NCBI GenBank assembly: GCA_009829735.1
Contig: CM020618.1
Location: 42,608,878-42,672,877 of the forward strand
Direction of reading: 5' to 3'
Length of the DNA stretch: 64,000 nt
DNA from: Pyropia yezoensis
Lineage: Eukaryota; Rhodophyta; Bangiophyceae; Bangiales; Bangiaceae
How positions within the stretch are numbered: position 1 is the first letter of the stretch; each line of letters opens with the position of its first letter. Of the stretch, positions 28,012 to 61,985 are shown piece after piece. Below the pieces are notes generated by a model. It had not been told where the DNA came from. It saw nothing but the letters and a program-made list of their open reading frames with translations, and did no database searches. The translations under genes were made by a program, and so were the position numbers.

Positions 28012-29898
28012 ATGGCAGACGAGGTTGCCCCGGTGGTGGGCGGTGGTGAGGCGGAGGCATCGCTTGATGAATGTGCGGGGGCCGCACGGCCGGTGGTGGG
28101 CTGGTATCGGAGCCCAAGGGCGACCTATATGTTTGACGGTGTCGGGTTCGTGGCGGACCCGCCGTTGATGGAGGCGGCGCGGACCAATCGGTCAATGGCT
28201 CTACAGCGTATCCGCGACGCGCGGTGGGCGTCGTTGCCCAACTTCCGGGACGCGTCAATCGACGGGCGGTTCTACGAGGGCGAGTCCGTGTCGGACGTCC
28301 ATGGTCATGCTGACTTTGGTCGTCAAGGGCCCGAACGGCAGGCGTACGAGGTGTTGTCGTTGTCCAACGAGTTGCTGCGGTACGGGGCGGCTGGTGGTCT
28401 TCACCCTTATCATCGGCGTCTGTACGCTTGGGCGCTTGCCTTACGTGTCGGGCAAGTTGAGACCTTTGTGGTCGCGGCCAACAACTTCGGCCGTCTTCGC
28501 CGGCTGTGGCCTTCGGCCGTGTTCTTGGCACGTGACTTGGCCGAGCGGCTTGATGTGCCTATCGCGGAGGACCATGGGCTAGAGGAGTATCTGGCCATGT
28601 TGGCTGACAAGGTTGCCCATGGGGTGCGTCCGGCGGGCGTCAAATTTGGTCCTGCGACCTGTTCGCTTCCTAACCCGTTCCGGGATCCGACGACGTCGAT
28701 TCGTCTTCGTAGGTCGTGGGACCTGGCGGCCTTTGAGCGTCGCGGCCTTTTGGCGCCGGCTTGGGCGTCCAGCCTGGGGCGCGCACGCCCGTTCTTCGAC
28801 CTGAAGCGTTGGCTTCCATCACGCCCATCGTGGTGGGTTGAGTACGGACCGTACATGGAGACGCCGGCGGCATTGTCGTACGTCGCCAGTGGGCTTAAGG
28901 ACGCAGATAACGCGGCTTGGGGCGTCGTGTACGACGAGTTTTTCTGCTTTGCCTTGGCGGCTTGGGTGCATTGGCTCGTCCATGACGGACTTTTTTGCTG
29001 GTTGCCGGACCAAGTGACCGAGTGGTTCGACGGGTTGGACGTGTCGCGGCTGGCCGATGGGCCCGGGGGTGAGGAGCGTCTTGCGACGTACCACCGTATG
29101 CGTGATGCACACGCCGTCTTCCCGTGGACAACCATTATCGCCGACGTCCGCCGACGTGATGAGCGCACCAAGGCGGCTCGCCAGGTGTACGTCAAGTTGG
29201 ACGCGACGGCCAAGTATGGCTTCGTTCTTCGTCAGCCGTGCGGCGCGTTTGATTGAAAGTATGACGCCTCGTGGGAGGGTGGTGACGAGTCGTCCGGACC
29301 GGGTCGTGGTCCCGGTCGTGGTCGTGAGACCGGTCGTCGGGTGCGGGACGCGTCTCGGTCGTTGTCGCCGGTGGCCGGTGCGGGGTCAAGTGACCGTGTT
29401 AACCTTGGTGTGGTTGCCCCTGTGTCCGGTGGGACCGGTGGCACGGAGCCGATCTGGCCGTCGGAGTGGGCCCGTGTGGGTGCTGTTGCCCTGTTGGGTA
29501 CTGACCGGGTGGGTGCCTTGGCTGGGCAAGTGGTGCCTCGTGGCGCAACGGCTGGGGCGTTGGCCATTGCTTAGTCTCGTCAGACCGTGGAGATTGATGA
29601 CGTTCTTCGTCGGGTCAGTGGGATGACTGAGTCGGAGGCCGTTGAGGCTTTGGTGTTGACGGTCTCCCGTTTGGCGGATCCGTCTCGCATTCGCGATAGC
29701 TTGCTCAGTGAGCTGCGTCGTACGCCCTCGGTGGAGGCTCGGGCTGCGAGTCCTCGTCGTGTTGACGTTGGTGCCATTCTTGGCGTTCGTCGTCGAAAGA
29801 TGTCGGATGACGAGGAGGAGGATGCGCCTCGTGCGCCGGCTCGGCGTGTGCGCTCGCGCAGTTCGTCTTTTGGCGAGGGCTCGCGACGTCGCCGTTGA
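28012..29898 (+). CDS. Antisense additional ORF of element A (now sense because of the inversion)
   Basis: From ATG 28012 (MADEVAPVVGGG) 414 residues are open to TGA 29254-29256. The same frame continues through a TAG at 29572-29574 to the stop at 29896-29898, and the later parts look coding (VEIDDVLRRVSGMTESEAV, then an Arg/Ser-rich tail RRVRSRSSS). The body is Trp/Arg-rich, with RPSWWVEYGPYM, WVHWLVHDGLFCWLP and RDAHAVFPWTTI, which line up with blocks in the ORFs of B/C and D/E. No known domain is recognised. In the restored element A it is antisense to pol and ends about 40 bases from the pol stop. The two internal stops are probably damage in this copy. A longer frame upstream (from 27451) runs through the minisatellite and is less likely to be coding. 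Confidence 0.65.
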
Positions 29899-29938
29899 GG
29901 GGGGGTTGGGAGGTGAGGGTGTTGCCGTACGGCTTGTG

Positions 29939-30358
29939 TTAGTCTTGTTTGTACTTGTGTTGGCCCTTTGGCTTGTTGTTTGTTTGTTCGTGTTTGAACA
30001 TGAAGGCAGCCCTGGCCCATTCTGTTGTCTTTTTGTCCGTTGTTAGGACTGGCCGGAGTATCTTCGACTCATGACAGAGCCGTTTGGCTTTTGAGAACCA
30101 TGAGGCATGTTCCCAGCGTGGGGTGACCAGGAGGGTGTCCTTTGGACTGGATTGTAGCTCTGTGACCACTTGGTCAAGCGTGTGGGTGGGGGATACCCTT
30201 AGGCAGATGCCTTGTGAGTTCTGCTCCGAGGCAGTGACATGCCTCTCCGGCTGGTAGCTCAACTGGCCATAGTGCTTGGTGAGTTCTGGGAGTTCCCAGA
30301 GTGGTCCCCATGTGGGGGAGGTGAAGTTCCGGCATGCCTCTGGCAGTGTTGACTTCAT
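29939..30358 (-). pseudogene. pol: Element A Pol, C-terminal tail (displaced by inversion)
   Basis: 139 codons, beginning exactly next to element C and in phase with the pol frame that stops being readable at 10155. It contains TLLVTPRWEHASWFSKAKR and ends in a Lys-rich stretch before the stop at 29939-29941. It lies beyond the chromodomain, where other gypsy elements usually have nothing, and has no counterpart in B/C or D. I do not recognise the domain. Confidence 0.65.
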
Positions 30359-30363
30359 GCAGT

Positions 30364-30726
30364 TGTAGCAATATGGTTGTCCGTATTGTGACCCTAATAT
30401 CAGTGGGGCTACTTCTAACCCTTAACTTTCAATTTGATAGTTCGTACTGGTCACGGTATCTATAAGTTACGTATGACCAGAGGGACTTGCATCTTGGGGT
30501 GGAGGGTAGTTAGTAGTGTCTCCGAGGGTTTATAACGAGGGGGCCGGTGGCGAATCCACCGCCGGCCAAGGCAGAACAACAAACCCCTCCCATTTGGGCT
30601 CCCATCTTGGTCCCGTGGCTTGCGCTCCAAGGACAGCAACCTTGGCCTCCCGGTGACGTTGGTGCCGATCCCCCTTGGTGAGTGTTCCCTGAGAGTGGAC
30701 GTGCGACGGATCCCTATTGTGCTACA
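30364..30726 (+). repeat. Element C 5' LTR
   Basis: The repeat begins TGTAGCAATATGG and ends TTGTGCTACA. A TATA-like TTTATAACG lies near 30530. The left flank GCAGT (30359-30363) does not match the right flank GCTCC, because of the inversion next to it. Confidence 0.95.
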
Positions 30727-30951
30727 TTGGTGGAGCAGCAGCGGACGGGTTTCCGTCACCCTTGTGGTGACGCCGTCTTCGGCCCTGGCACACGGATAGG
30801 GATCCGGTCCTTTTCTTGTACTCGTGGTGTTGCGACCTGATCGATTGTGTTGAGATTTTACCTGTGACTGTGACATACTGTTACTCTCCCCAATCTACCC
30901 CCTCGCTCTCTCATTCGTGGTGATCGTTGCGTCGGTGGACTGATTGTGACG
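30727..30951 (+). promoter_or_regulatory. Element C primer-binding site and leader
   Basis: TGGTGGAGCAGCAG at 30728-30741, one base after the LTR; shared with A, B and D. The remainder is leader up to the gag ATG at 30952. Confidence 0.85.
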
Positions 30952-33135
30952 ATGTCTACCCAAGAGACGGGGAACGTTCAAGATGACGGATCGGCGTCGA
31001 CGCCGACTCCGGAGGTGACTACGGGAACCGAGATCGGGAACCCGATCGATAACATTGAGACGCCAATGCTTTCCGGTGCCGGATCGACGTTTGGCACGGC
31101 TCGGACGGCAGGAGGCGGGGGCCCGCCTCAACTGTCGTCGACCGACCTCACTCCGCCGCCTCCTTCACCAGGGGATTCCCTGATGGCATCATTGGCCCGC
31201 ATCGAGGCCCGGTTTTCCGGGCTCGACGCCCGTCAAGATCGGACGGAGGACGCAATGGCAGTGTTGATGTCAACACGGCACACGACGGGACCCCGTCGTG
31301 TTCCTCCCACACCGGTACGGTTCGAACCGGCCGGACTACTTTCGGAGTCCACCAGGGTCAATCCCGGGGTTGCTACTCCTGGACAACCCCCGGACACAAT
31401 GGGGTATGGGTCCGACTCGTCGGCAGAGTTGGAACGGAGTCACACGGAGCGATACGCTCGGAGCACCCGAAGCGGACTCCGCGGACACGACCCGGCGGAT
31501 ACGTACGCCGGGGGAGAGTCGGTTAATGGGGGAGGGGGTACCCTCTCGCAGTACCCCCACGACGAAGGAGGCCAGGCAACGCGGGTTCCCGAGGTGCCGA
31601 CGCCTGAAGTACCATCTTCAGTGGTGGAAGCTATGACCGCGCAGGTAACTGCGAGCCTACTGAAGCGGATGGAGTCCGATGAGTTCGCTCATCAACTGGC
31701 TAAGCGACTGGATATCCAGGACGCTGACACGGAGATCGTCAACGAGGTCTTCCGGTCGGTTCTCACTCCGGAACGTTATCGTTTGGAGGACCGCTCTACC
31801 ACCGTATCGGAATCGATGCGTAATACGTCGCATCGGGCGATCCGCTCTATGCAGACCCTTATGAAGGGAGTCCCTATGTTCGGGGGGCCGAACGGACGCC
31901 CGTTGGCAGTCATCGGCTTCTTGACTAGCTTCAAGGCAGCCGCAGACAAGGCGCTCGTTAACGAGGGGCTGGCTCTGGAGATCCTCCCGTTCTTTGTTGA
32001 TGAACGGGTGCGAGGCATTCTTCGCCAGGCATCCCCGATGCCGGGAATGAGGGTCGCGGCCACCCCCATGGATTACCGTGGGATATTGAAGGAGCTGCTG
32101 AGCAGCTACCTCAGTGAGGACAAGTGCGAGGACCACTATCGGGCCCTTCGCACTGCCACCGCCCAGTCCTGGGAGGACGAGGAGATGTTTGGACGCCGGA
32201 TCCAAGAGCTCGACTACGAGCTGGGGAAGCTCCTCGGAGAAGGCGAGCTACGGGCCATCCTGTTCGCAGGAGTACCCAACTACGTGCGGATATCCGCACG
32301 GGGCGCCAATACGGCACGGACGAACTTCAGTCGACTGATGCATATGTGCAAGTCCCTAGGGGACGCCTACCGGGTTCTACACCCGGAGTGTGCCTTGGCC
32401 CCGAAGCCCAAGGGTGAGGGAGGCAAACCCAGTCTTACCCCGGTACCGAGGCAAGAGAAGGTGGAACGTAAGGCCGCACCAGTACTGGTGGCGACCGAAC
32501 ATACCCCTATTGGTGAGGATGAACCTCTAGTCGACCAACAGGGCCACCTGTTGCTACCGGCGACGCCGGTGATTGATGAACATGGTACGGTAGCGTACAT
32601 CGCCCCGGCTGGAACCCAGTTCCAGGTCAACGAAGGAACGGGACGGCGCGTCCCGTATGTGCGGACTACGGGGTACTCCCCGGTGACGGGTAACCCTCAC
32701 CAACCCTTGCCAACATGGGCGGTGCGCACGGAGGCACCTCCGCAGATTGCGGGCCGACCCAACCGGTTGGGGGAGTCCATGTTCCGGTTGACCCAAGGAC
32801 CCAAGGCCTACCAGGGAGCTGGCACTCGGGTGCCCGAGGGAGGCAACCGCAGCTACGGGGCTACCCCGATGCGAACTCAAGGGGGGACCGGCACGTCCGG
32901 GTGTATGTTGTGTGGGGATCCCCAGCACTGGGTGTCTTCCTGCCCACTCATCCCCGAGGAGTCTCGGCGGGCAGCGGCGCAACGCAAGGCATCTACCGGG
33001 GGGTATCCCGCCCGAGCACCCGGAACCGCACCGGGTAGGCAGCCAGCTCCAGGTGGAGTACTGGCCGTCGAGGGGGCACCTCCTCAGCCGGATGTCCCGG
33101 CGGACAGCACCCTACCAGGGGCGGGAAACGAGTAA
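30952..33135 (+). CDS. gag: Element C Gag polyprotein
   Basis: 727 residues from ATG 30952 (MSTQETGNVQDDG). It has a disordered Pro/Thr/Gly-rich N-terminal half, a helical capsid-like central part (roughly residues 230-470) and a CCHC knuckle CMLCGDPQHWVSSC near residue 640. A Pro/Ala-rich tail ends AGNE before TAA 33133-33135. It is nearly identical to the B Gag. As an RNA-packaging structural protein it should be made in excess over Gag-Pol, which fits the frameshift signal placed at its very end. Confidence 0.9.
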   Translation: MSTQETGNVQDDGSASTPTPEVTTGTEIGNPIDNIETPMLSGAGSTFGTARTAGGGGPPQLSSTDLTPPPPSPGDSLMASLARIEARFSGLDARQDRTEDAMAVLMSTRHTTGPRRVPPTPVRFEPAGLLSESTRVNPGVATPGQPPDTMGYGSDSSAELERSHTERYARSTRSGLRGHDPADTYAGGESVNGGGGTLSQYPHDEGGQATRVPEVPTPEVPSSVVEAMTAQVTASLLKRMESDEFAHQLAKRLDIQDADTEIVNEVFRSVLTPERYRLEDRSTTVSESMRNTSHRAIRSMQTLMKGVPMFGGPNGRPLAVIGFLTSFKAAADKALVNEGLALEILPFFVDERVRGILRQASPMPGMRVAATPMDYRGILKELLSSYLSEDKCEDHYRALRTATAQSWEDEEMFGRRIQELDYELGKLLGEGELRAILFAGVPNYVRISARGANTARTNFSRLMHMCKSLGDAYRVLHPECALAPKPKGEGGKPSLTPVPRQEKVERKAAPVLVATEHTPIGEDEPLVDQQGHLLLPATPVIDEHGTVAYIAPAGTQFQVNEGTGRRVPYVRTTGYSPVTGNPHQPLPTWAVRTEAPPQIAGRPNRLGESMFRLTQGPKAYQGAGTRVPEGGNRSYGATPMRTQGGTGTSGCMLCGDPQHWVSSCPLIPEESRRAAAQRKASTGGYPARAPGTAPGRQPAPGGVLAVEGAPPQPDVPADSTLPGAGNE

Positions 33136-33185
33136 GAGGAAGGATGACCGGGGGGCGCTGGGGTTACCCAAGCAAGCCACCCCGG
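33123..33185 (+). promoter_or_regulatory. -1 ribosomal frameshift signal, element C
   Basis: GGGAAAC (33123-33129) is a canonical X XXY YYZ heptamer in the gag frame (G GGA AAC), followed by GAG TAA. Pol is in the -1 frame and open through this point. Downstream sequence is strongly G/C rich; CCGGGG from about 33149 can pair with CCCCGG around 33180. That stem lies further from the slip site than usual, so the exact stimulator is uncertain. The same heptamer occurs in B (minus strand, 24655-24661 and 18215-18221). Confidence 0.7.
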
Positions 33186-36100
33186 AGTACCGCGGGGAAA
33201 GCCCCACGGAGAGCGCGGTTGAGCCGACGCCGCATCAACCCCCGGGTACACCTTCCGGCCCCGACGACACGGCGTCAGGGGATTGATGACCAACCTCCAA
33301 GGTTGGGAGGAGAGGACGGGAAGCCCCGTCACGTCGAACCAGACAAGGGCCCTGTTCAGGATGCCCGAGCTACACCGGATTTCGGTGTAGGACATGTGTT
33401 GTTTACCTTGGAGAACTTCAAGGTATCAGCCACACTGGGGGATGACCCCCAGTCGACACGATCGTACTACCCTGTACTGGACACAGGGGCTGGACCCAAC
33501 CTTATCCGGAAGGATACCCTCCCGGACAAGTGGCTTCCACGAGTCAGAGTGACTCGGGGACCCACCATCAAGGACGCGAATGGTCGACTCATTCGTACGA
33601 CCGCAGCGATGTCGCTGCGGGTTACCATCGGGGATCTCACCACGGAAGTTGACTTCTTGGTATGTGAAACGCTATCGGTGCCCTGCATACTGGGGTGCAC
33701 CTTCATCAACGTTCACGTTGATGCAATCCGGCCAGGCCGGAGGACCGTCGAGCTTCAAGAAGCCGACGGGACGAAGCGAGGACACACGGCTATCGTCAGG
33801 GATCTGACGCTACAAGGAAGCCACGTTAACGTGGCTGAGGTGTACGCTAGCGTCGAGCCGAAGACACTTCGATTGGCCAAGCGAACTCGCTTTGAGCCGT
33901 TGTCAGAGACAGTCCTCCCGGTTAACTGCGACCTCGCAGGCATCTGCAGAGTCCAGTCCAACCTACGGACGTACAAGCGCCATGGGTTGACCATGGCCAA
34001 CGGTCTCATAGACCTCCCAGCAGGAGGGTCGTCCCTCCTAGTGATGGCGAACTATCGCCGTAAGGCAGTCACCCTCCCGAAGGGAACTATCCTCGGGATT
34101 GCCGAACTCTACGAAGGAGATATCCTTACCCCTGATAAGGAAGGTCAAGTGGAACCACTTGAAGTACTGGCGGTCGCCGAGACCACCGAGCGACAGCAAC
34201 CCGATGACGGGAAGCCTAACCCATCGGCGGCGCCGGCGGACCTGCCGCCAAAGGACCAAGAGGCCTTGAAGGCACTGGCCGAGGCTGACCTCGACCACCT
34301 TCACCCTTCGGTAGCCGAAGGGGTACGACGGATGCTAAGAAAGCATGACGTTATGTGGACAGGCGGGGCCTTGGGGACCATTAGGGCAACCCAACATCGT
34401 ATAGACCTGGTACCAGGCGCACGACCCGCCCGCTCACAACCGCACCGAGCGGGACCTATGCAACGAGAGATCGTTGATGGAGAAGTGAAGAGGATGAGTG
34501 AAGCTAAGGTGATCCGACCTTCGATGTCGGAATGGGGTGCCCCAGTCGTTATTGTGCCGAAGAAGGATCAAACCCCTCGGTTTTGCATCGATTATCGACG
34601 CCTCAACTTGGTTACCAAGAAGGACTCATACCCTTTACCAAGGATGGATGAATGCATCGACTCCCTGGGGGAGGCTACGGTGTTTACCACCATCGACTGC
34701 AATGCCGGATACTGGCAGATCCCGGTGGCGGACGAGGATATCCCCAAGACGGCATTCGTCTGTCACAGTGGAGTGTACGAGTTCCTAAGGATGCCCTTCG
34801 GATTGTCCAACGCCCCCGCTACATTCCAGCGGGCTATCGACATCATACTGTCGGGGGTGAAGTGGCGTAACTGCCTAGTGTACCTCGATGACGTCATCGT
34901 CTTCTCGCGTAACATGGATGACCATGTACAACATGTTGACGAGGTACTCACCCTCTTGAGGAACGCCGGGGTAACCCTGCGTCTGAAGAAGTGCGCCTTC
35001 TTCCAACAGACGGTCGAATATCTGGGCCACCAGATAACCCCTGGTAAACTAGGGGTACTCGAAGCCAATACCCGGGCACTCCGAGATGCCCGGTTCCCTA
35101 ACACCCAGACGCAGCTCAAGAGCTTCCTGGGAATGTGCAATGTATACCGACGGTTCGTCAAGGACTTCGCTCGGATAGCTAAACCGTTAACGGTTCTTAC
35201 GAGCAGTACCTTACCCAAGGTACTCCAACCCCCTTCGCCTAGCGAAGAGGAGGCATTCGAGTCGCTGAAGCGAGCCCTACTAGCCCCACCCGTCCTTGCG
35301 TTACCGCATAGACGGGGTACCTTCGTCATCGATGTCGATGCGTGTGATACACAAGTGGGATGCACCCTGTTACAGGGAGAGACGTTGATAGGTACCGACA
35401 ACGTTATCCCGGACCTACGTCCGGTAGGGTACTTCAGCCGGACACTCAACCCGGCTGAGCGGAACTATAGTGCCACCGAGCGTGAATGCCTCGGAGTTAT
35501 ATGGGCAGTGCAACTGCTCCGTCCATACCTGGAGGGCTCCAGGTTCATCGTGAGGTCCGACCACGAACCCCTACGATGGCTCCTCAACCTTGGTGACAAG
35601 GATTCCGATAGCCATGGGAGGCTAGCCCGATGGAGGCTGAAGATGGCCGAGCACGACTACCGCACGGTGTATAAGGCTGGGTCAACCCACCACCTCGGAG
35701 ACGCGTTGTCTCGACTCGACACCCCGAGCGGGGATACCCGCCCGGTGGACGAGGACATCCCGGTGGTACCGGTGTGCATGGTGGGTAATGCTACCCAGGG
35801 TATGGCTGACCATACCATGGCACACCTTGCGTGCCCATTGACCCTCGCGGACTTCCGCGAGGCACAGGCCAACGACGATGACTGTAGACGTCATCGTGCT
35901 AACCTCCTGGCCGGTACGGCCGGCATCTTCTCCGAGAACGAAGACGGACTCATATACCGGCGGGCACCCGCCGACGGACGACATCAAGTCGTGGTTCCCG
36001 TGTCCTTACGGCAAGCCGTCATGAAACGAGAACATGAGAACCCTACAGCCGGACACCCGGGGGGTTCACGTATGTTCGCAGCAATGCGAAGGTTCTTCTA

Positions 36101-37310
36101 CTGGCCAGCAATGGCCGTCGACGTGGTCGACCACGTAAGGGGATGCCACCCCTGTGCACGTAACCGCATGAGTCTACATAGGCGGGCGTCTGCCATGAAG
36201 CTATTCCCACCTGATGGGCCCAACGAGCAAGTCGCTATCGACATACTCGGGCCACTTCCGATAACGGAAGAAGGGAACAGGTACATCCTGGTCATGTCTG
36301 ACCGCTTCACTAAGCTGTCAAGAGCGGCAGCCATCCCGAATGATACGGCATACACGATCATGAACGCAGTGGTTGACCGCTGGATCAGTGCATACGGAGT
36401 CATGAAGCAACTTCTCTCCGATAACGGAGCAAACCTTATGTCGGCATTCTGCACTAAGGTCCTGGGCATGTTCGGTATCGAACCACGTCGGGCATCCGAC
36501 TACCACCCGCAGTCCAACGGGCAGGTGGAGCGGTTCAACCGCACCATTGTAAAGATGCTACAGTGCTACGTGGCCGAGCACACGAACACTTGGGACAGGC
36601 TTCTGTCCGTACTCACCCTGGCATACAATGCCAGGCCACATCGGAGCACAAACATTGCTCCGCTGGAGTGGGTCATGCCACTAGGCGTCGGTAACCTGAC
36701 GCTGCCACCCGGCAGGTGCACTCGGTATGATACACCGAAGGGCCGACCCGCCGAACGCATCCACCTAGCTTGGTTGGCCAAGCTATCGTGGATGATTCCT
36801 AAGCTCAAGGGTGCCCTTGACAGAACACAACTTCGGTATAAGAAGAACTTCGACGCCCGACTACGGGTGCGCAACGCAACCCTGGTAACAGGTGACTGGG
36901 TCTATATCAGACACCAGAAGTTCCGAGGGAACAAGCTTATGCAACCGGTCAAGGGACCGTACCAGATCCTCCACAGAGATGACCACTCTGTTATCTTACA
37001 CTCCGATACGGAGATTCAACGCATCAGCATGAATGATGTCACACCTGCTCCGATGCCGGAACAGCCTCAGCCGGTACCGGCTGAATTGCTACATGAAGCT
37101 CTTACAACCCACCGGTCAGATGACCCGGTGGGACCGGATGGGATTCCATACCAAGTAGAGAGCGTGGTCGGACACACCGACCCGGACCTACCAGGACCCT
37201 GGTACGTCAAGGTTATGTGGGTCGGATACGACTCACCCACCTGGGAACAGGCGGCAAATATACCCCGCCAACTCCTCATGCCTTACATGAGGCGACGACG
37301 CCTACTGTAA
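33144..37310 (+). CDS. pol: Element C Pol (protease, RT, RNase H, integrase, chromodomain)
   Basis: 1388 codons from ATG 33144; with the frameshift the protein would begin about five codons earlier in fusion with Gag. Landmarks: protease DTGAGPNLIRK near residue 112; a long linker; RT FCIDYRRL near 478, NAGYWQIPV, and YLDDVIVFS near 579; RNase H DVDAC near 730 (the usual DVDAS position has Cys), ATERECLGV and RSDHEPLRW; integrase zinc domain and D, D, E near 1032, 1093 and 1128; chromodomain-like end VKVMWVGYDSPTWEQ near 1352. All catalytic residues I can check are present. It converges with the antisense ORF about 480 bases downstream. Confidence 0.93.
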   Translation: MTGGRWGYPSKPPRSTAGKAPRRARLSRRRINPRVHLPAPTTRRQGIDDQPPRLGGEDGKPRHVEPDKGPVQDARATPDFGVGHVLFTLENFKVSATLGDDPQSTRSYYPVLDTGAGPNLIRKDTLPDKWLPRVRVTRGPTIKDANGRLIRTTAAMSLRVTIGDLTTEVDFLVCETLSVPCILGCTFINVHVDAIRPGRRTVELQEADGTKRGHTAIVRDLTLQGSHVNVAEVYASVEPKTLRLAKRTRFEPLSETVLPVNCDLAGICRVQSNLRTYKRHGLTMANGLIDLPAGGSSLLVMANYRRKAVTLPKGTILGIAELYEGDILTPDKEGQVEPLEVLAVAETTERQQPDDGKPNPSAAPADLPPKDQEALKALAEADLDHLHPSVAEGVRRMLRKHDVMWTGGALGTIRATQHRIDLVPGARPARSQPHRAGPMQREIVDGEVKRMSEAKVIRPSMSEWGAPVVIVPKKDQTPRFCIDYRRLNLVTKKDSYPLPRMDECIDSLGEATVFTTIDCNAGYWQIPVADEDIPKTAFVCHSGVYEFLRMPFGLSNAPATFQRAIDIILSGVKWRNCLVYLDDVIVFSRNMDDHVQHVDEVLTLLRNAGVTLRLKKCAFFQQTVEYLGHQITPGKLGVLEANTRALRDARFPNTQTQLKSFLGMCNVYRRFVKDFARIAKPLTVLTSSTLPKVLQPPSPSEEEAFESLKRALLAPPVLALPHRRGTFVIDVDACDTQVGCTLLQGETLIGTDNVIPDLRPVGYFSRTLNPAERNYSATERECLGVIWAVQLLRPYLEGSRFIVRSDHEPLRWLLNLGDKDSDSHGRLARWRLKMAEHDYRTVYKAGSTHHLGDALSRLDTPSGDTRPVDEDIPVVPVCMVGNATQGMADHTMAHLACPLTLADFREAQANDDDCRRHRANLLAGTAGIFSENEDGLIYRRAPADGRHQVVVPVSLRQAVMKREHENPTAGHPGGSRMFAAMRRFFYWPAMAVDVVDHVRGCHPCARNRMSLHRRASAMKLFPPDGPNEQVAIDILGPLPITEEGNRYILVMSDRFTKLSRAAAIPNDTAYTIMNAVVDRWISAYGVMKQLLSDNGANLMSAFCTKVLGMFGIEPRRASDYHPQSNGQVERFNRTIVKMLQCYVAEHTNTWDRLLSVLTLAYNARPHRSTNIAPLEWVMPLGVGNLTLPPGRCTRYDTPKGRPAERIHLAWLAKLSWMIPKLKGALDRTQLRYKKNFDARLRVRNATLVTGDWVYIRHQKFRGNKLMQPVKGPYQILHRDDHSVILHSDTEIQRISMNDVTPAPMPEQPQPVPAELLHEALTTHRSDDPVGPDGIPYQVESVVGHTDPDLPGPWYVKVMWVGYDSPTWEQAANIPRQLLMPYMRRRRLL

Positions 37311-37790: not shown

Positions 37791-40238
37791 TCAGTGGGTA
37801 GACCCACTGCCCGAGGGAGGCCACTCACGCGTAAGCGCGTAGACCTCCGTGCTCCACCGGTCGGCAATGTCACGACGGTCGACCACCCGAGTTACCTCGG
37901 TGCATAGCTGGACGAGGGTGCTGCGGCCAGCCTCCACGTCCTCCAGAGCTTTCTGGAGGCGGTCCAGCACGCCACCAAAGCAACGCGCTGACCCAACCAG
38001 CGCAGCACCTGGGGGGATATCCCCCCAGCTAACAGAGAGACCCCCACGCATTGCGCGGGTAACAAGGGCGTCAACGCCTTCATACCAGAGACGGGGACCC
38101 CCGTCATGTAGGACAGGGGCGGGAGGTGACACTGGCGCAGCCAGAGGAGCCACAGGAGCCGGCACGGCTACCACCGGAGCCGGTGGCACCTGATACGAGG
38201 CCCGGTAGGACCCTACCGAAGGGGCTCCACCGTAACCACGGCGGTACTCCGCCCGACGACGGGACACCTCACGCTCCCCACCCACAGAGCCCCACTCTCG
38301 GGGACGACGGCCAACCGCCGCCGGCATCGGGTTACCGAACCACGGAGCAAGGACCTGAAGAGGGTCATGGATAACCATGGGAATACCCAGGTCAGCAACA
38401 GCCTCGGTGGATGCCCACCCATGGCAACTGGGCTCACCCGGCTGAGTACGCCGGACACGCAACGAGTGACGAGGCAAGGGGGAAGCCCCAGCCTGCGGGT
38501 CCCGGTACGGGGGAAGGTCCAACACCCCAGCCCAGTTCACGGCATCGTGAACAGCCAGCAGAACCTCGAACTCCCGGGCCAACCCGGTCTTGGCGGCTAT
38601 CAGATCCACGCCCAACTGCGCGATGTGCCGACGGACACCCGTCGGAAGATGAAACAGACGACCCTGCCGGCGGACGGACAGCAAGAAGGATGAAGCCTGC
38701 CCGAGGGTAACCTCAAGGGTGAAGGTACCCTGCAACGGGTGGACCGGTCGCGAGGCCAACACACTCCCGAAGTAGCGAAGGCAGGAGCCGGTGTCAAACC
38801 GGAAAGCAGGGGCGGGTTCCCACCCCTCCTGCCATAGCGGCGGGCGCACGGGAGTGTATACCGGAGCACGACCGTTGCCGGTCTGCAACGCACACGTTAT
38901 ATCCGTGCGGAACGCATCCGCCATGACACCATGGTTACGTCGCCAACTCGACGCCGACTTCAACCACGCCATGGGCGGGTAGGGAGCCGTCAACGACAGA
39001 TACGGGGGTTCCCCCGGGTAGTAGTCAAAGTCGGGATACCGACCGGTACGGCTCACCGTCTCCCCAAACGCAACCGGCTCCGCCGCCGCCGCAATCCCCC
39101 GAGCACTAGCCGGGTAGTCAATCTCCCGCGGCAACGCGGGGGCAATCAAGTCGCAGACCCCGAAGTTGGGGTCGAGGTAGACCTCACCCCGTCCCACCCG
39201 GGTGCGCCAGAGCTGCGCATGCCGGTCGTCCGGCTGACTCAGGATCCAATGGTGTTCCACCCGGACCGCGTTCGGCTGGTTGACCAGCCGCACCAACTCC
39301 CGCTCCCAGCACGGGTCCACCTTGACGCGCCGGGAGGATTCTCCACGGGGATGCACCAGGTGGAAGTCCACCCGCATACGCCCATCGGACTCCATCGACT
39401 CTTGCACCGTGAGGCCTCGAACCCGAGCCACCAAGTCGGACACCGACATGGCGGGTTGACCCGCCGCCACGGCGACGCCGCCACCCAACGGGGCAACCCG
39501 GGCAGGACCAGGAAGAATCGGGAGCGCCGGGGGACGCACCACCGGCAGAGGGGCCGACGTCGGAGATGGACGAGGCCGAGGAGGAAGAAGAAGGGCGGGC
39601 GCCCGCCCGGAGTAACTCCCGGTGTCAACCGCCATGGGAGAAGGAGCGTCTTGACCGCTCGACACCCGCGGCACCGCAGGTATGGTACCGGCGCCGGCAC
39701 CACCCGTCGGCGTAGCCCCCGCCTCGGAAGTGGAAGGCACTTGGACAGCCTCCGGAGCCGGAGCCCCGGCCGTGCGGACACCCGCACCGTCTTGACCCAC
39801 CGCACCGGGTGTCGCACCGCCACCACCACCCGCGTCAACGTCGGGACCGCCTCGAGGAGTCACCGCCCGGACACCCGGACCACCTTGACCAGCCGGAGTC
39901 GGCTGCGGGTCGCCACCTCCGCCGCAGGGCGGACCATCTTGAGGTACCTGCGGTGAGCCGGCACCGGCACCAGGCTCCATCCGGGCAGCCGGCAGAGAGG
40001 GGGTAGAAGCCGCCACGCGCGGTTGACCGCCGGGTTGACCTCCGGCCGACGGCACCGTCGTGCCGCTGCACACGGACGACAGTCCTCCGGCCGACAGACG
40101 GACGGACACCGCAGGCCCGTCGTCGTCAGACGAGCTCACCCCGTAACGCGCGGCGTCGGGACCGACAGGCGCGTCGTCCTCCATCTCCTCCCCGATCAGG
40201 AGGTCTTCCTCCTCTTCAAGCACCTGGGGATAGGACAT
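37791..40238 (-). CDS. Antisense additional ORF of element C
   Basis: 815 residues from ATG 40236-40238, antisense to gag-pol, intact and nearly identical to the ORF at 11106-13553 (differences include T/S in GETV-RTG and F/S in SVG-YRAS). It has an acidic N terminus, a long Pro/Gly/Ala-rich region, and a central Trp/Arg-rich region with motifs shared with A and D/E. No signal peptide or convincing transmembrane helix is seen, which argues against a simple envelope protein. No nuclease, helicase or methyltransferase motif is seen. An expressed accessory protein is inferred from the open frame in two copies and from its fixed place in three families. Confidence 0.8.
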   Translation of the reverse strand: MSYPQVLEEEEDLLIGEEMEDDAPVGPDAARYGVSSSDDDGPAVSVRLSAGGLSSVCSGTTVPSAGGQPGGQPRVAASTPSLPAARMEPGAGAGSPQVPQDGPPCGGGGDPQPTPAGQGGPGVRAVTPRGGPDVDAGGGGGATPGAVGQDGAGVRTAGAPAPEAVQVPSTSEAGATPTGGAGAGTIPAVPRVSSGQDAPSPMAVDTGSYSGRAPALLLPPRPRPSPTSAPLPVVRPPALPILPGPARVAPLGGGVAVAAGQPAMSVSDLVARVRGLTVQESMESDGRMRVDFHLVHPRGESSRRVKVDPCWERELVRLVNQPNAVRVEHHWILSQPDDRHAQLWRTRVGRGEVYLDPNFGVCDLIAPALPREIDYPASARGIAAAAEPVAFGETVSRTGRYPDFDYYPGEPPYLSLTAPYPPMAWLKSASSWRRNHGVMADAFRTDITCALQTGNGRAPVYTPVRPPLWQEGWEPAPAFRFDTGSCLRYFGSVLASRPVHPLQGTFTLEVTLGQASSFLLSVRRQGRLFHLPTGVRRHIAQLGVDLIAAKTGLAREFEVLLAVHDAVNWAGVLDLPPYRDPQAGASPLPRHSLRVRRTQPGEPSCHGWASTEAVADLGIPMVIHDPLQVLAPWFGNPMPAAVGRRPREWGSVGGEREVSRRRAEYRRGYGGAPSVGSYRASYQVPPAPVVAVPAPVAPLAAPVSPPAPVLHDGGPRLWYEGVDALVTRAMRGGLSVSWGDIPPGAALVGSARCFGGVLDRLQKALEDVEAGRSTLVQLCTEVTRVVDRRDIADRWSTEVYALTREWPPSGSGSTH

Positions 40239-40825: not shown

Positions 40826-41188
40826 TGTAGCAATATGGTTGTCCGTATTGTGACCCTAATATCAGGGGGGCTACTTCTAACCCTTAACTTTCAATTTGAT
40901 AGTTCGTACTGGTCACGGTATCTATAAGTTACGTATGACCAGAGGGACTTGCATCTTGGGGTGGAGGGTAGTTAGTAGTGTCTCCGAGGGTTTATAACGA
41001 GGGGGCCGGTGGCGAATCCACCGCCGGCCAAGGCAGAACAACAAACCCCTCCCATTTGGGCTCCCATCTTGGTCCCGTGGCTTGCGCTCCAAGGACAGCA
41101 ACCTTGGCCTCCCGGTGACGTTGGTGCCGATCCCCCTTGGTGAGTGTTCCCTGAGAGTGGACGTGCGACGGATCCCTATTGTGCTACA
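40826..41188 (+). repeat. Element C 3' LTR
   Basis: 363 bp, essentially identical to 30364-30726. It is followed by GCTCC (41189-41193), the reverse complement of GGAGC next to element B. Confidence 0.95.
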
Positions 41189-52120: not shown

Positions 52121-52221
52121 TGTATGACGTGACACGTTTGCAACGTACGGCCCTCTGACCCAGATCCGGTAAGCATAATGTGCCTATGCAGCCCTCTCTA
52201 CGGGGATGAATCTGGGTATGC

Positions 52222-55049: not shown

Positions 55050-58000
55050 CTTGCCCCCGGCCGCGCCTGTTGTGCCCGTATCGTACTTGATACCGGGTCA
55101 GGAGCCTCCTTGATACGCAAGTCGCTATTACCAAAGGAGGTGAAGCTCCAACGCTGGAGATCCAAAGCTGACCATCTGATCGATATCAATGGTGGGGTAC
55201 TTCCCATCGTTGGTGCCGCGACCCTCCCAATTAGGTTGGGGACCCATAAGGTCGACGTGACCTATGGAGTAGTTGAGAATATATCGTTACCCCTGCTTCT
55301 GGGTACCCCTTATGTTGTTACACAAGTGCCTTTGATTTGTGGCCCTGAGTATTTGGTCAAGTTGATGAATGGGGAAACCATCCCCATCCTTGGTAAGGGA
55401 AAGTCTGTGGCTCCTGTGACAGTCTCACAGTCGAAGCCTGTTTGCTCTGTGAGGGAAGGGTTTACTGCTACCCTGCGTTTAGCCCGTAAGGTCACGTTGC
55501 CCCCCAACTCGGTGGCGCACGTTGACGTTGTAACTGATTATACGGGGAACGGGTTGGTCCACCCTTACCCCCGTGTTGCTCGCAAGCACCAAGTGCATGT
55601 TGCCCTTGGCACGATGGACTCCAAAGCCGGAGTCCCGTGGAAGATCCAGGTGATGAACCTGACCTCGTCGCCCAAGTACTTCAAGTCGGGAGCCAAGTTC
55701 GGCTATATCGACCAACACGAGGGACCGGTAGTAGCGGTCACCCTCAACGCGGGCGCAAGTAGCGACCCGAAGCCCGGAAAGGAGACGCATCAAGCCAAGT
55801 CGGCCGCCTCTCTTCGGCCCCATGTGAACATGGAGGGTGTCCCACCCAGGTTGAGGGATCAAGTTGAACGCCTCTTGGACCAATATCACAAGTTGTGGGA
55901 TGGCCGATTGGGACTCATGAGAGCTACCCAACACCGGATCGAGTTGAAGCCCGGTGCACCCTCTATACGCCAACAACCGTATAGGGGAGGACCTCGTTCA
56001 AGGGCCTTCGTTAAGGAGCAAGTTGCTCGCATGGAGGCCCTCGATGTGATCGAGGCCAGTAACGCCGAGTGGGCGAGTCCGGTGGTTATCGTCCCCAAAG
56101 TTGATGGGACCCCCCGGTTCTGTATCGACTACCGTAAGCTCAACGAGAGCACGGTGAAGGACAGTTATCCCCTACCTAGGATGGACGACTGTCTGGACTC
56201 TCTGGGGGAGGCAAACGTGTTCTCTACCCTGGACTGTAACGCGGGGTACTGGCAAATTCCCATTGCCCCGGAGGACAGGCATAAAACTACCTTTACCTGT
56301 CACTGTGGTATCTACCAGTGCAAGCGTCTACCGTTTGGCCTGTGTAACGCGCCGGCAACTTTCCAGCGCGCTATGGACATGATTCTGGCCGGAGTACGGT
56401 GGCAGATCTGTCTCGTGTACCTAGACGATATCATTGTGTTCTCCCGAAGTCCGGAAGAACACATTGGCCATCTTGGCCAGGTGATCAAGCTACTTGCTGA
56501 CGCCGGTGTGTCACTGAAGGCGAGTAAGTGCCACCTCTTCACTCAAGAGGTGGAATACTTGGGACATGTTGTCCGTCCGGGGCGCCTCAGTGTCAACGAG
56601 AAAATCTTGAGGGCCATCCGTAAGGCTCAGTACCCCCGGACCCAGACCCAGATGAGGAGCTTCCTCGGGATGTGTAACGTGTACCGACGTTTCACCAAGG
56701 GCTTCGCCAAGGTGGCGAAGCCGTTGAATGAGCTAGTGAGCTCAACGCTACCGAAGAACCTGCCTCCCCCAAGTCGGGTGGAGCAGGAATTCTTTGAGAC
56801 TCTTCGGGACCTTCTGCTGAAGCCCCCCATCTTGGCTATTCCCAGGTTGGGAGGCCACTACATCCTGGATGTGGACGCTAGCTACGACCAACTTGGTTGT
56901 GTGTTGCTTCAGCAGCAGCCGGACAAGGAGTACTTGCCGGTGGGATACTTCAGCAAGGGGCTGAACTCGGCCGAGAAGAACTATGGAGTCACCGAGTTGG
57001 AAGGACTCGCAGTGGTGTGGGCAGTGACGTCACTTCGTCACTACCTAAAGGGTGAGAAGTTCCTCATCCGCTGTGACCACCGCGCGTTGCAGTTCATCTT
57101 CAAGACGGACTGTACGAACACTCGTCTCAACCGGTGGAGGGTGCGAGTGGCACCCTTCAACTTTGACATTGAGTACCGACCTGGCAGGCAACATGCCCTT
57201 GCCGACGGCCTCTCTCGGGTACCTACCGAGGGGCTGGACGCCAGCCCAGTCGATGAGGACATCCCCATCGGGGGGGTAGTCACGCGCTCGGGTCAGGCGT
57301 TGAACCCCGAGGCGCCAGGGAACAAGAAGTACTTGCCCCTGTCCCTGGACGAGGTGGTGAAGGCCGGGGCCGAGGATCCCTTCTGCAAGTCGCAGAGGGA
57401 TGCACTGGATACAGTGGCGGAGACGCGGTTCTTTCTGGGAGACGATGGCCTCCTCATGAGGAGGGGGGTATTCCAGGGGACCGAGCAACTTGTCGTCCCC
57501 GCATCCCTCAAGGACAGTATCCTTGAGAGGGAGCACAACGCTCCCACGGGTGGACACTTGGGTTCTAGTCAACTGTACCGGACCCTGAGGACCAGGTACT
57601 ACTGGCCGTCCATGGTGGTGGACATCTACAGTTGGGTGGCTGCCTGCACAGGTTGTGCACAGAACCGTCTGATGGAACGGCGGCCTACTACGGCTATGCT
57701 ATTGTTCCCGGTCACGGAGCCCTTCGCCGCGTTGGCGATGGATATCCTTGGGCCACTGCCAGTGACCGAGGAGGGCAACCAGTACCTCCTGGTCATCTGT
57801 GACCGCTTCACGAAACTTACGCGAGCGATCCCACTGGCAGAGATCACGGCCATGTCGGTCGTGTCAGCCTTCCTAGATCACTGGGTTGCCGCGTATGGCA
57901 TCACGGATAGTACACTATCGGACAATGGAGCGCAATTTGCGTCTGTACTGTTTCAGGGAGTGCTGGATATGTTGGGGGTGCGGGCAAACTATGCCACCCC

Positions 58001-58832
58001 CTACCACCCACAAACTAATGGGCAGGTGGAGCGCTTCAACAAAACTATTGTTAGGCAGCTGCGCCACTATGTGAGTGAGCACGTGAAAACGTGGGACCAA
58101 TACATTTCTATTCTTACCACTGCCTACAATTCGCAGGTTCACTCATCTACCGGGGAAGTACCCCTCGCTTTTGTGACCCCCCGTCGCGTGCGGTCTATAG
58201 CTGTGCGGCGGTCGCTCCCAACGAGGGAGGATGGCGGCAGTACGCCTACTCCTACTGAGAGTAAGGCGGAGTTCGCTGCTAGGCTCGAAAACCTCATCCC
58301 TAAAGTCATGGCTGAGATGGACAAAGCACAAAAGCGCTACAAGCGTACCTTTGAAAAAAAGGTGCGCAATGCTAAGCATGTCCCCGAGCAGGGTGACTGG
58401 GTGCTGGTACACTCGCACACCCCAACTGGGGGTAAGCTGGTATTCCAGACGAAGGGACCGTACCAGGTCCTTCGTACTGATGGGCGGCGCTTCACCATCG
58501 AAAGTGACGATGGGGTCCGCACAGTGAACGGACAGGACGTGGTCAAAGTTGCACCACCGCCTGCAGGCGACCCAGCTTGGGCGCGTGCGTTGGAAGCGTG
58601 GCGCCTCCCCTCGCTGCCTGCGGCCAAACAGGGCCCGCAGGAGTACGTGTTCGATAAGTTCATCGACCTCGGATGGGATGAAGACACTGACCGCCTCATG
58701 TTGAGGGTGCGTTGGTATGGCTACAAAGCCAAGGATGATACGTGGGAGTATGTGGAGGACCTTCCCGCTGAGAAGGTCCGGGCGTACTGTGCCCGGAATG
58801 AGATAGACCCTAAGAGCCCTCCCTCAACGTGA
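55050..58832 (+). CDS. pol: Element D Pol (protease, RT, RNase H, integrase, chromodomain)
   Basis: The -1 frame is open from the slippery site to a TAA at 55047-55049 (GENFQVAGRV then stop) and then from 55050 to the end; there is no ATG before the protease motif LDTGSGASLIRK (55086-55121). Numbered from 55110: RT FCIDYRKL near 336 and YLDDIIVFS near 437; RNase H DVDAS near 588, VTELEGLAV and RCDHRAL; integrase zinc domain with CTGCAQNR and D, D, E near 877, 938 and 974; chromodomain LRVRWYGYKAKDDTWEY near 1194-1220. Apart from the TAA all catalytic motifs are intact. It converges with the antisense ORF, whose stop is about 110 bases away. Confidence 0.9.
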   Translation, partial: LAPGRACCARIVLDTGSGASLIRKSLLPKEVKLQRWRSKADHLIDINGGVLPIVGAATLPIRLGTHKVDVTYGVVENISLPLLLGTPYVVTQVPLICGPEYLVKLMNGETIPILGKGKSVAPVTVSQSKPVCSVREGFTATLRLARKVTLPPNSVAHVDVVTDYTGNGLVHPYPRVARKHQVHVALGTMDSKAGVPWKIQVMNLTSSPKYFKSGAKFGYIDQHEGPVVAVTLNAGASSDPKPGKETHQAKSAASLRPHVNMEGVPPRLRDQVERLLDQYHKLWDGRLGLMRATQHRIELKPGAPSIRQQPYRGGPRSRAFVKEQVARMEALDVIEASNAEWASPVVIVPKVDGTPRFCIDYRKLNESTVKDSYPLPRMDDCLDSLGEANVFSTLDCNAGYWQIPIAPEDRHKTTFTCHCGIYQCKRLPFGLCNAPATFQRAMDMILAGVRWQICLVYLDDIIVFSRSPEEHIGHLGQVIKLLADAGVSLKASKCHLFTQEVEYLGHVVRPGRLSVNEKILRAIRKAQYPRTQTQMRSFLGMCNVYRRFTKGFAKVAKPLNELVSSTLPKNLPPPSRVEQEFFETLRDLLLKPPILAIPRLGGHYILDVDASYDQLGCVLLQQQPDKEYLPVGYFSKGLNSAEKNYGVTELEGLAVVWAVTSLRHYLKGEKFLIRCDHRALQFIFKTDCTNTRLNRWRVRVAPFNFDIEYRPGRQHALADGLSRVPTEGLDASPVDEDIPIGGVVTRSGQALNPEAPGNKKYLPLSLDEVVKAGAEDPFCKSQRDALDTVAETRFFLGDDGLLMRRGVFQGTEQLVVPASLKDSILEREHNAPTGGHLGSSQLYRTLRTRYYWPSMVVDIYSWVAACTGCAQNRLMERRPTTAMLLFPVTEPFAALAMDILGPLPVTEEGNQYLLVICDRFTKLTRAIPLAEITAMSVVSAFLDHWVAAYGITDSTLSDNGAQFASVLFQGVLDMLGVRANYATPYHPQTNGQVERFNKTIVRQLRHYVSEHVKTWDQYISILTTAYNSQVHSSTGEVPLAFVTPRRVRSIAVRRSLPTREDGGSTPTPTESKAEFAARLENLIPKVMAEMDKAQKRYKRTFEKKVRNAKHVPEQGDWVLVHSHTPTGGKLVFQTKGPYQVLRTDGRRFTIESDDGVRTVNGQDVVKVAPPPAGDPAWARALEAWRLPSLPAAKQGPQEYVFDKFIDLGWDEDTDRLMLRVRWYGYKAKDDTWEYVEDLPAEKVRAYCARNEIDPKSPPST

Positions 58833-58943
58833 GGGAAGGCCGAGCAACAGTGCCAAGAGAGTGCTTCAAGTCGAAGTGGTACGCAGAGTGGCTTTTAACT
58901 ACAGCCCTAACCCTCACACTCTCACAACAAAGGCAGCTACCAA

Positions 58944-59530
58944 CTAGGCACGCATGCTAGACTCTTCCACTCCACGGCCCTCGCCCTCACGTGGAGGCGA
59001 GCGGCGAGACCCACGCCGATAACGGTCTCCACTTGTTGGAGGGGGCGGCGGCTCCAAGTCGGAACCGTCGCGCCTCTCACGGTCGCGCAAGTGGCGCCGA
59101 CCGTGGCCACTCTTCTGCCTGGTCTTGCGCGCAAGTTGGCGACGCAGACGCTGGACAGACTGCGTCTCCGACGGGGTAGAGGACCTCGAGACGGAGTAAG
59201 ACAACTCGTCTTCCGACACGGAGGGAGAGCGCCGCGAGTGTCGGCGACGACGGCGAGGACGCGAGTATGCCCGGCTCGCGCGACGTTTGCCACGCCCAAG
59301 TGGGGCTGGCTGGGGCATAATAGCCCCAATGCGAGCCAACTCGGCTGTCATAAACTCCGCCAACGACAAGCAACTCGCGGTCGCCACAACAGTACGAACG
59401 CGCTCCTCAAGTTGAGGAGTCTCGGAACTTTGGAGGGTTGCGGTTGACGCGGCCAACCAGGAAATGGTACGCACCAACGTGGTGATCATCATCTCTGAGG
59501 TAAGAGGCGTGGGCGGCAACACCAACCTCC
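58944..59530 (-). pseudogene. Element D antisense ORF, C-terminal part only
   Basis: The minus-strand frame from the junction at about 59530 to the stop at 58944-58946 reads LTSEMMITTLVRTISWLAAS, LEERVRTVVATASCLSLAEF, and an Arg/Ser-rich tail (RRRRRHSRRSPSVSEDE, RLRRQLARKTRQKS). It is the homologue of the C-terminal region of the E ORF at 61440-61985 and lacks E's two stops (W and Q at those positions). The ancestral frame therefore ran through. The N-terminal part was lost at the D/E junction. Confidence 0.75.
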
Positions 59531-59750
59531 CACCCCAGCACCTGCCCACCGGGCAACACGAAAATTCCAGACTATAAATGCAGAAAACCCTCAAATCCAA
59601 GTTGGATTTACTACTAAGCTAACTATCCCAAACTTTGGGAATATGGACCCAAATGCAGGGGAAGGAACGGGTCAGGCTAGTGGCCTGCCGCCCCTTGCAT
59701 GGCACGTGTTGCCCCCCTACCTGGGGGTCAATACTGCCACACTCCCCTCT
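59530..59750 (-). repeat. LTR fragment (inverted) of the D/E family
   Basis: The reverse complement matches about 52330-52545 of the D 5' LTR, including TAGCTTAGTAGTAAATCC. Both LTR ends are missing. It is the truncated 3' LTR of E and marks the junction with D. Confidence 0.8.
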
Positions 59751-59759
59751 CGTCAGTTC

Positions 59760-61985
59760 CGACCGACCCGGTCGGCCCTGCGAGGGGGCGTAGAAACGCA
59801 CATCGCGGCGTTGGGGGCGCGACTTGCTGTTCCCCCCGGTACGTCACGTGGACGTGGAGGCGGTCACGTTGACCGCCCCTCTCCTCAAGCTTGCCCACTT
59901 GGCAGCTTGCTCTTATCGGTACTCACTTCACCACCACCAACACATCCTATTCACCTCACCCTGGGCCGCCCCACGCCGGGGAGGCCACCCATCTACCCGC
60001 GATCCGAGCCCCCCTCAACTCGAGGTGGGTCTCGGGCAGCTGCAACCGCGCTGCCTCTCTCTAACTCGGGGAGAGCCAGGGTGACCCCGGGGGTGGGGAC
60101 GGACTTCTTGGACGAACGTGTGGAGGATACGTCCTACGATGCAGCGCCCGCCGGGACTTCTGGCGGTGGCTCCCCGGTCGCTCCAGGGGATGGGATGCTC
60201 GCGTCACCCGACTTGGGGTTGGCGGCGGGATCTCCGCCGGAGACGGGCCGCGTTGTTCCACGGGAGGCCTTGGGGCGGTGGTTTTACCCAGCTTGGCCTC
60301 TGTATGAGGAGGGGTTGACGGTTCTCCGCTGTGGCCGACTTGGCACAGCGATGAGTCGCGTATGGGACCGCCGACGGGAGAAGTTCCCCCGTAGGGTCGG
60401 GCTTCCTCCTGACTGCCCGACGGACCAGTTTGCCTTCCTGCATGAGGACGAGGTCGAAGATGTGCAGCGGGCCAAGGCCATGGTGGACCGCGGGGGTACT
60501 ATACCGGGCACTGGCGACGTGCCAACCTTCACTTGGGACGTGGTGGCAACTCGCCCCCCGTACCTTCGCGACGTCGATCCGCACACTCATCACTTTGATG
60601 TGCGGATGGAGAAGGACTTCCGGCGAGGTCCCTACTTGGTAACCTCGGCTCAACTTGAGTTTCCGCAGCAGTCACCTGCTAGCAAGGAGCAGTATTACCC
60701 CAAGAAGCCCGAGTGGTGGCCTCAAGTTGAGGTCCCCTATGGGTTTCCGGCGTTGCTGCCACGGTTAGTCGACCACTTTGGCTCCACCATGTTGGTGGCT
60801 AGCCCGGACCACCTGGTGTTCGCCATGTTGGCAACCCAGTGGCTCCGTGAGGTCATGTCGACCTGGGTGTCTTGTGTCCAGCGGCGGGGGATGTTTTGGC
60901 ATCTATCCCCCCGGCTTATCCAAGGTTTGGAACAGCTCACCCCTCAGCTAGTTGCTGAGGGGTGCTCATCAGGACAACTCACTCTACTTGAGGAGATGCT
61001 CCGCCTTTACAAGTTCATCGAGTGGGAGAGCATTGAGCACAAGTTGCGCCGCCCCACTCGTGGGCCCAAGGACGATGGCGCACTTCGCCAGTTCGTCTGG
61101 GTCGGTCGTGAGCTTCACGACGGCCGTGTGGAGCTCCAAGAGGGGTTGGGCATCGGGGACTACCCGTATGCCCCGGGGATGAAGCGCCACACTGCGCCTC
61201 CCCCGGACAAGGCAATCATGGTGGACGTGGCCTCCCATGACGACTACATGGCTCAACCCACTGGGGGCGCCCCAAGTCGGGGTCGCAGTTACACCCGGGT
61301 CCCGCCACCTCGGCGTGCCCCTCCGCTTCCTCCTTTCCCATTCCAGCCGCATAGGGACATCCCCATAGGCGTTGCCGTTGAGTCGTCCACCCCGGTGTCC
61401 AACAGCTTGGGGGCCACCCTCCTCACGGTCTATCCCAAGTTGGTACTGCTGGCCACGCCCTTGACCTCCGAGATGATGATCATCACGTTGGTGCGCACCA
61501 TTTCTTAATTGGCCGCATCGGCTGCAACCCTTCAAGTTTCCGAGACTCCTCAACTTGAGGAGCGCGTTTGTACTGTTGTGGCGACCGCGAGTTGCTTGTC
61601 GTTGGCGGGATTCATGACGACCGAATTGGCTCGTATTGGGTCGATTGTGCCCTAGCCGGCCCAGCTTGGGCGCGGCAAGCGTCGGGCAAGCCGGGCATAC
61701 TCGCTTCCTTGCCGTCGTCGCCGTCACTCGCGGCGATCTCCCTCCGTGTCGGAAGACGAGTTGTCTTACTCCGTCTTGGAGTCCTCTACCCCGCCGGAGA
61801 CGGAATCTGTCCGGCGTCTGCGTCGCCAACTTGCGCGCAAGACCAAGCAGATTAGTAGCCGCGGTCGTCGCCACTTGCGCGACCGTGAGGGGCGCGAAGG
61901 TTTCGACTTCGAGCCGCCGTCCCCTCCGACGAGTGGAGAACGTTATCGGCGTGGGTCTCGCCGCTCGCCTCCACGTGAGGGCTAG
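59760..61985 (+). pseudogene. Antisense additional ORF of element E
   Basis: One frame carries the whole protein: a Pro/Arg/Gly-rich N terminus, then ALGRWFYPAWPLYEEG, RRREKFPRRVGLP, PKKPEWWPQVEVPYG, WVSCVQRRGMFWHLSP and LYKFIEWESI. The C-terminal region follows, interrupted by TAA 61506-61508 and a TAG near 61651-61653, ending in an Arg/Ser-rich tail with RRRRHSRRSPSVSEDE. I could not identify the start codon; the frame runs upstream into the LTR fragment. The gene is antisense to the pol of E, as in D, B, C and restored A. The blocks shared with those proteins are the best evidence for a common family. Function unknown. Confidence 0.65.

Follow-up and report, generated by a model that had tools for sequence, protein, structure and literature searches.

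Genes antisense to gag-pol are known from plant Ty3/gypsy retrotransposons, in which an additional open reading frame (ORF), called aORF-3R or eORF-3'R, lies between pol and the 3' long terminal repeat (LTR). The examples described include gene23 of maize Grande, rice RIRE2 and Silene Retand with Transposase_28/TRP28; the proteins are sometimes nuclear, and their function is given in these accounts as unknown (PMC7264820, PMC11963269). The extra ORFs of plant LTR elements are presented in PMC6317226 as highly divergent, and whether they are functional has been questioned there. Accessory ORFs common to divergent elements are also described from bdelloid rotifers, where they have recognisable domains (GDSL, DEDDy and env; PMC5408684). 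Here we report an antisense gene of this general kind from the red alga Pyropia yezoensis, starting from a 64-kb stretch of its genome (C1:42608878-42672877, hereafter the window) and extending to the 107.5 Mb of the genome searched (11 contigs, three of them large: 43.6, 34.3 and 29.4 Mb). Four element families, A, B/C and D/E in the window and F elsewhere, encode a minus-strand protein of about 600-1000 residues, whose gene sits tail-to-tail with pol, in the interval separating pol from the 3' LTR.

As in plants, the gene is antisense to gag-pol, lies on the 3' LTR side of pol and is present in most copies (PMC7264820, PMC11963269). Retand, in contrast, is a non-chromovirus of flowering plants (PMC11963269) with a domain, Transposase_28, that the algal proteins did not match, and, unlike the divergent extra ORFs of plants, the algal genes form one protein family common to four divergent chromodomain families; unlike the rotifer proteins, the algal protein is without any recognisable domain. 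In the literature searched, no title pointed to work on antisense ORFs of red-algal LTR elements. The arrangement is of a known kind, an antisense extra ORF, and what is new is the protein family, the host lineage and the sharing across divergent chromodomain families.

According to the initial annotation of the window, A, B/C and D/E each have, between pol and the 3' LTR, a long ORF on the strand opposite to gag-pol, and its positions and orientation were right (Table 1). The ORF is open in both B and C, as claimed, with 814 codons rather than the 815 given. The converging stops were said to lie 40-480 bases apart, which agrees with gaps between pol and the antisense gene of 480 nt in C, 111 nt in the E copy L031 and 41 nt in the A copy L043. 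Homology in the broken A copy of the window continues past its open frame to ~29.8 kb, and the longest open frame of E (59499-61508, +) starts in LTR sequence, outside the gene proper. The E protein has at least 66 scored matches in the genome, from which 30 loci, the window copy included, were picked for the similarity of their proteins to E. At 20 of the 29 loci outside the window the frame stays open for 600 amino acids or more, and in 15 of these it is exactly 647 residues long. The C-terminus of pol ends just past the antisense stop, converging on it, in 29 of the 30 loci (L010 gave no pol match), and the gene is likewise placed next to a converging pol in A (L043), C and F. Eight A-type stretches were read, L043 and seven others: the 590 residues compared are free of interruption in L043, L046, L048 and L049, the first ~30 residues of L043 being in another frame; L045 has one stop, and L050 and L051 are frameshifted, L051 being partial. 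Among the E loci, L016, L017 and L019 (C2:19.156-19.176 Mb) are three consecutive genes spaced at 8452 bases, the first two sharing an LTR-sized repeat, and are likely to form a tandem array.

Judged from profile comparisons, the antisense proteins of A, B/C, D/E and F are homologous and constitute one family. In hhalign, A matched E with P=6.3e-6 and C matched E with P=1e-5 over 183 columns, recovering the blocks and the register that had been lined up by eye in the initial annotation. As these profiles hold few effective sequences, a decoy test was added, in which the targets of hmmsearch were 371 real proteins together with 637 decoys made by reversal or shuffling. The best decoy reached E 0.4, whereas the A profile had its best match beyond family A in the E protein P0010 (E 0.0023), and P0010 was also the best outside match of the C profile (E 0.0078), after a C-like fragment beside an assembly gap; the best outside matches of the E profile were C members (from 2.1e-4), followed by the A relative P0022 (0.011). 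With tblastn against the 64-kb window, two of four A-family queries (P0022, 8.8e-6; P0015, 1.4e-4) and the single C-family query (P0005, 6.9e-4) matched the E gene, and P0013, P0027 and the E protein matched their own families only. Family F, of which the copy at C1:34412369 and two others were read, was found through the position of its reverse transcriptase (RT) and has an open antisense frame of 995 codons adjoining pol. Its alignment matched that of A with E=2.2e-16 over 332 columns and that of E weakly (0.002).

The antisense protein is under purifying selection in families A, E and F, for which the ratio of nonsynonymous to synonymous changes (dN/dS) was calculated by the Nei-Gojobori method in a script. 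For the 30 E loci, with no choice by intactness, dN/dS was 0.234 in the frame of the gene, a value somewhat biased towards conservation by the selection of loci on protein similarity. The other five frames gave 1.35, 1.93, 1.05, 0.33 and 1.96, the value of 0.33 belonging to the complementary frame, which shares third positions and is rich in stops. Third positions accounted for 58.7% of changes, and 11 of the 30 loci had a stop in the gene's own frame (14 stops in total), against 337-697 stops in the other frames. Between two subfamilies of A, dN/dS was 0.177-0.188 for L045 against five others, with 0.180 for L043 against L045 at dS ~1, and it was 0.194 between copies of F. Recent A copies differed by 3-22 changes with dN/dS of 0.7-2.8, as expected after insertion. 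Strong constraint between lineages together with near-neutral drift in recent copies is the pattern predicted by selection on transposition. The values between lineages (0.18-0.25) lie far from 1, and together with the profile matches they support the claim of the initial annotation that one antisense protein family is kept by selection in divergent chromodomain elements. The C-terminus of pol at the same 30 E loci was less constrained (0.43) than the antisense gene (0.23), and two longer E stretches, L039 and L040, combine an open antisense gene with a broken pol; from these two observations, it is possible that the E antisense protein is supplied in trans.

The host elements have RT before integrase, the Ty3/gypsy order, according to Pfam matches in the pol genes of A, C and D. 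Their description as chromodomain elements held for one A relative, L043, in which Chromo scored 38.3 bits against a cut-off of 25.1; the window copies of C (E 0.074), A (E 0.12) and D (E 0.0024) fell below the Pfam cut-off, as did F with 21.4 bits. The pol genes of A, C and D are mutually 41-42% identical; against the commonest RT family in the genome, their identity is 29-33% where alignments exceed 550 residues and reaches 39% in shorter ones. Over its last 463 residues, F pol shares 40% identity with A, 33% with C and 29% with D. In A and F (L043 1-1747; L052 with L047), pol has a tail of ~200 residues past the chromodomain, which aligns between the two families and is without a Pfam match in A. 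By eye, this tail may resemble a motif in the RNase H tails of DIRS-type elements.

No trustworthy Pfam match was obtained for the A, C, E or F antisense proteins, in agreement with the earlier statement that no known domain could be recognised. PF04195 (Transposase_28) was found in none of the 18+8+11 aligned members at E<=5, nor in two F proteins at E<=1, and it gave no match in the genome, though control genomes gave none either. In the most basic stretch of 80 residues, the count of basic residues is 19 for both L043 and P0013, 26 for E and 31 for F. A model of the A relative from Pyropia vietnamensis predicts a mostly helical region at residues 31-200 (predicted local distance difference test score, pLDDT, 50-88) and three helices at residues 511-570 (56-71). 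An arginine- and serine-rich (RS) domain, SR-like by eye, was considered and rejected, as RS dipeptides were not above shuffles. Also rejected was a C-terminal domain common to all families: it held for A and F, where 14 and 19 of 2000 shuffles scored as high, and weakly for P0015 and C (28 of 2000), and did not hold for E. Relatives in other species were sought in protein searches that each scored the best 8000 candidates by shared words, so that wider absence is not implied. Within this scope, five named P. vietnamensis proteins are related to C, at best with 48% identity over 75% of the query, and A has 17 relatives, including one at 53% in P. vietnamensis; the identities of relatives elsewhere range from 42 to 53%.

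We propose that the gene probably encodes a nuclear nucleic-acid-binding accessory protein of the elements, inherited since the common ancestor of the families and expressed from a promoter at the 3' LTR. The gene would have been acquired once, in the ancestor of the families, and then inherited with pol, given the same place, the same orientation, the homology and the related pol genes. Because the gene lies on the strand that is not made as mRNA from the 5' LTR, its expression would require a minus-strand promoter in or just inside the 3' LTR. The helical core, the arginine-rich stretch in A, E and F and the small helical C-terminal domain in A, F and perhaps C suggest the nuclear role; nuclear nucleic-acid binding itself we infer from composition alone, in A, E and F only. 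The protein may multimerise and act on the genomic RNA or the pre-integration complex of the element that encodes it, candidate acts being nuclear retention or export of the RNA, packaging and nuclear entry, and it would be kept by selection among the copies still able to transpose. A candidate functional model is CERV of Cer1 in Caenorhabditis elegans, an extra 3' protein that is nuclear and required for export of the genomic RNA; CERV differs in being encoded on the sense strand, by a spliced mRNA sharing gag sequence (PMC10309623), and the comparison drawn here is one of descriptions.

Several results weigh against this proposal. The direct hhalign comparison of A with C was not significant (P=0.19), although in the same register, so that this part of the by-eye alignment, and of the profile-profile test of the three proteins, was not supported directly, and the two families are joined through E. 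With the E profile, the A copy of the window reached just 0.46, worse than the best decoy, and an unrelated window frame scored 0.056. The F alignment had no match to C; no pairing of the C-terminal domain with E was supported (133-1950 of 2000 shuffles scoring as high), nor was C-F (442 and 1468); and E has one relative only, 96% identical, among its best 8000 candidates. On the side of the proposed role, the structure model is poor (mean pLDDT 49), and Foldseek, run with this A-relative model only, returned nothing at E<=0.001, which from such a model is no evidence either way on a capsid fold. A strong basic stretch is missing from C, P0015 and P0016, in which the best 80 residues include 15 basic ones, and for A, C, E and F the number of RS dipeptides in the most basic 80 residues never exceeded the mean of the shuffles by more than 0.5. 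Finally, one of the eight A-type stretches, L044, matches just the first 48 residues of the gene despite a 1522-amino-acid open frame over RT, and the antisense gene may therefore be dispensable in cis or supplied in trans.

The initial annotation had named intact elements lacking the ORF as a finding that would speak against it, and here the outcome is mixed: the majority of E loci keep the frame, L044 is mostly without the gene, and two elements of other families, L041 and L042, gave no match to the A, C or E antisense proteins in the 5 kb read downstream. L041 adjoins L004 of the commonest RT family, and L042 is a similar copy by eye, the chromodomains of both being judged by eye. In L041 the gag of another element starts 0.9 kb past pol, so the antisense gene could lie beyond it, and the absence from L041 and L042 is weak evidence. 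In L042 (1812-3096), overlapping frames on both strands occur in the 2.2 kb that separate pol from the following gag, and one of them (+) has a C2H2-like finger by eye.

Other roles and origins were weighed against the nuclear accessory protein. That the protein is a silencing suppressor or transcriptional regulator, acting on host chromatin or the small-RNA defence in the manner of the nuclear HBZ of human T-cell leukaemia virus type 1 (HTLV-1), is unlikely, though it retains some weight: the antisense placement beside the 3' LTR and the arginine-rich stretches of A, E and F would suit it, and plant ORFs so arranged are discussed as regulators (PMC7264820, PMC11963269), whereas Pfam revealed no known suppressor or regulator domain. 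We regard as rather improbable a second structural protein, capsid-like or nucleocapsid-like, that would be encoded on the minus strand and incorporated into particles; a helical core followed by a basic stretch does resemble the layout of capsid and nucleocapsid, but a gag gene is already present in these elements, that of A with a zinc knuckle, and none of the antisense proteins matched a Pfam gag family. A captured host gene or a nested mobile element riding along is improbable as well. Extra ORFs can derive from host genes (PMC7264820), yet the named relatives among the candidates scored are annotated as hypothetical proteins, no Pfam family was matched, and the gene occupies one place in four families and is under selection in the three measured. 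Independent capture, in which an unrelated or separately acquired ORF came to the same place in each family, as reported for plant extra ORFs with their many unrelated groups (PMC6317226), would account for the missing direct matches of A and F to C; we consider it improbable, because the A-E, C-E and A-F profile matches are colinear, orientation and stop-to-stop placement are the same, and the pol genes of A, C and D are closer to one another than to the commonest RT family. A chance open frame, arising from high GC or coding constraint on the other strand with no protein made, can be dismissed, for although a GC content of ~60% makes long frames commoner and the simulated maximum for the A segment (588 codons) was near the observed 611, the longest open frames (909, 611 and 588 codons) beat 300 of 300 first-order Markov simulations in each of three regions, the gene does not overlap pol, homologous proteins exist elsewhere, and the frame-specific selection already contradicts it, non-gene frames giving dN/dS of 1.0-2.5 except the complementary one (0.33-0.34), which contains 697 stops over the 30 E loci.

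Beyond the nuclear accessory protein itself, we entertain a broader interpretation that falls a little short of an even prospect: that these are true ambisense retrotransposons, a red-algal chromodomain clade that would have kept a minus-strand gene of an otherwise unknown family since before the families diverged, as a standard part of the life cycle. Such a gene would parallel, with a separate origin, the antisense genes that complex retroviruses carry, and its role in handling RNA or chromatin would be nuclear. HBZ is a small leucine-zipper protein, and ASP of human immunodeficiency virus type 1 (HIV-1) is another retroviral antisense gene. The algal protein differs from HBZ in its length of 600-1000 residues, in not overlapping pol and in having no zipper match in Pfam. 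What it has in common with HBZ, which is nuclear, is that both are encoded by a minus-strand protein gene in an LTR element (PMC11963269).

The window itself contains nested elements (Table 1). B (10155-27420, minus strand, with a gap of 500 Ns) and C (30364-41188, plus strand) are 99.7-99.8% identical and both lie inside A, whose two LTRs are flanked by the same five bases; D and E are oppositely oriented at 52-64 kb. Target-site duplications (TSDs) were examined for A, B and C. With the segment 27421-30363 turned back, C is flanked by GCTCC on both sides and B by ACTAC/ACTGC (four of five bases), so the inversion of the A segment between B and C that had been proposed is right. The stretch 10151-41188 is accordingly made up of two opposed copies of one retrotransposon within a third element, with the part between them inverted. 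Within B (13371-25758), a 6.44-kb duplication with copies ~99.7% identical flanks the 500 Ns (19318-19817), and the sequence is either a pair of tandem elements that meet at an assembly gap or an array that has collapsed.

Table 1. Features of the 64-kb window, numbered from its first base
Feature	Position	Strand	Remarks
A 5' LTR	3739..4145	+	TSD CTCGT
A 3' LTR	41408..41814	+	TSD CTCGT
A gag	4244..6109	+	CCHC zinc knuckle
A pol	5989..9864	+	frame ends inside chromodomain in window copy; relative L043 continues
B antisense ORF	11109..13553	+	mirror copy of C, open
A segment inverted between B and C	27421..30363	.	TSDs fit after undoing inversion
A antisense gene, broken copy	28012..29895	+	open to 29256, two in-frame stops; on inverted segment
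C 5' LTR	30364..30726	+	
C 3' LTR	40826..41188	+	
C gag	30874..33135	+	
C pol	33039..37310	+	protease, RT, RNase H and integrase in this order; weak C-terminal chromodomain
C antisense ORF	37791..40235	-	814 codons, open; part matching E is residues 381-572
D pol	55050..58832	+	weak chromodomain match
D antisense gene, retained 3' part	58947..59528	-	residues 454-647 of family protein
E antisense gene, broken copy	60081..62012	+	three in-frame stops against family protein
E pol, 3' part	62191..63147	-	converges on E antisense gene

The presence of one protein family in four divergent element families, of which three gave dN/dS of 0.18-0.25 with an internal frame control, makes the function of an antisense retrotransposon gene testable far from the flowering plants, and the related proteins allow conserved residues to be chosen for experiment. 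That the gene has been kept by selection suggests that these elements need the antisense protein.

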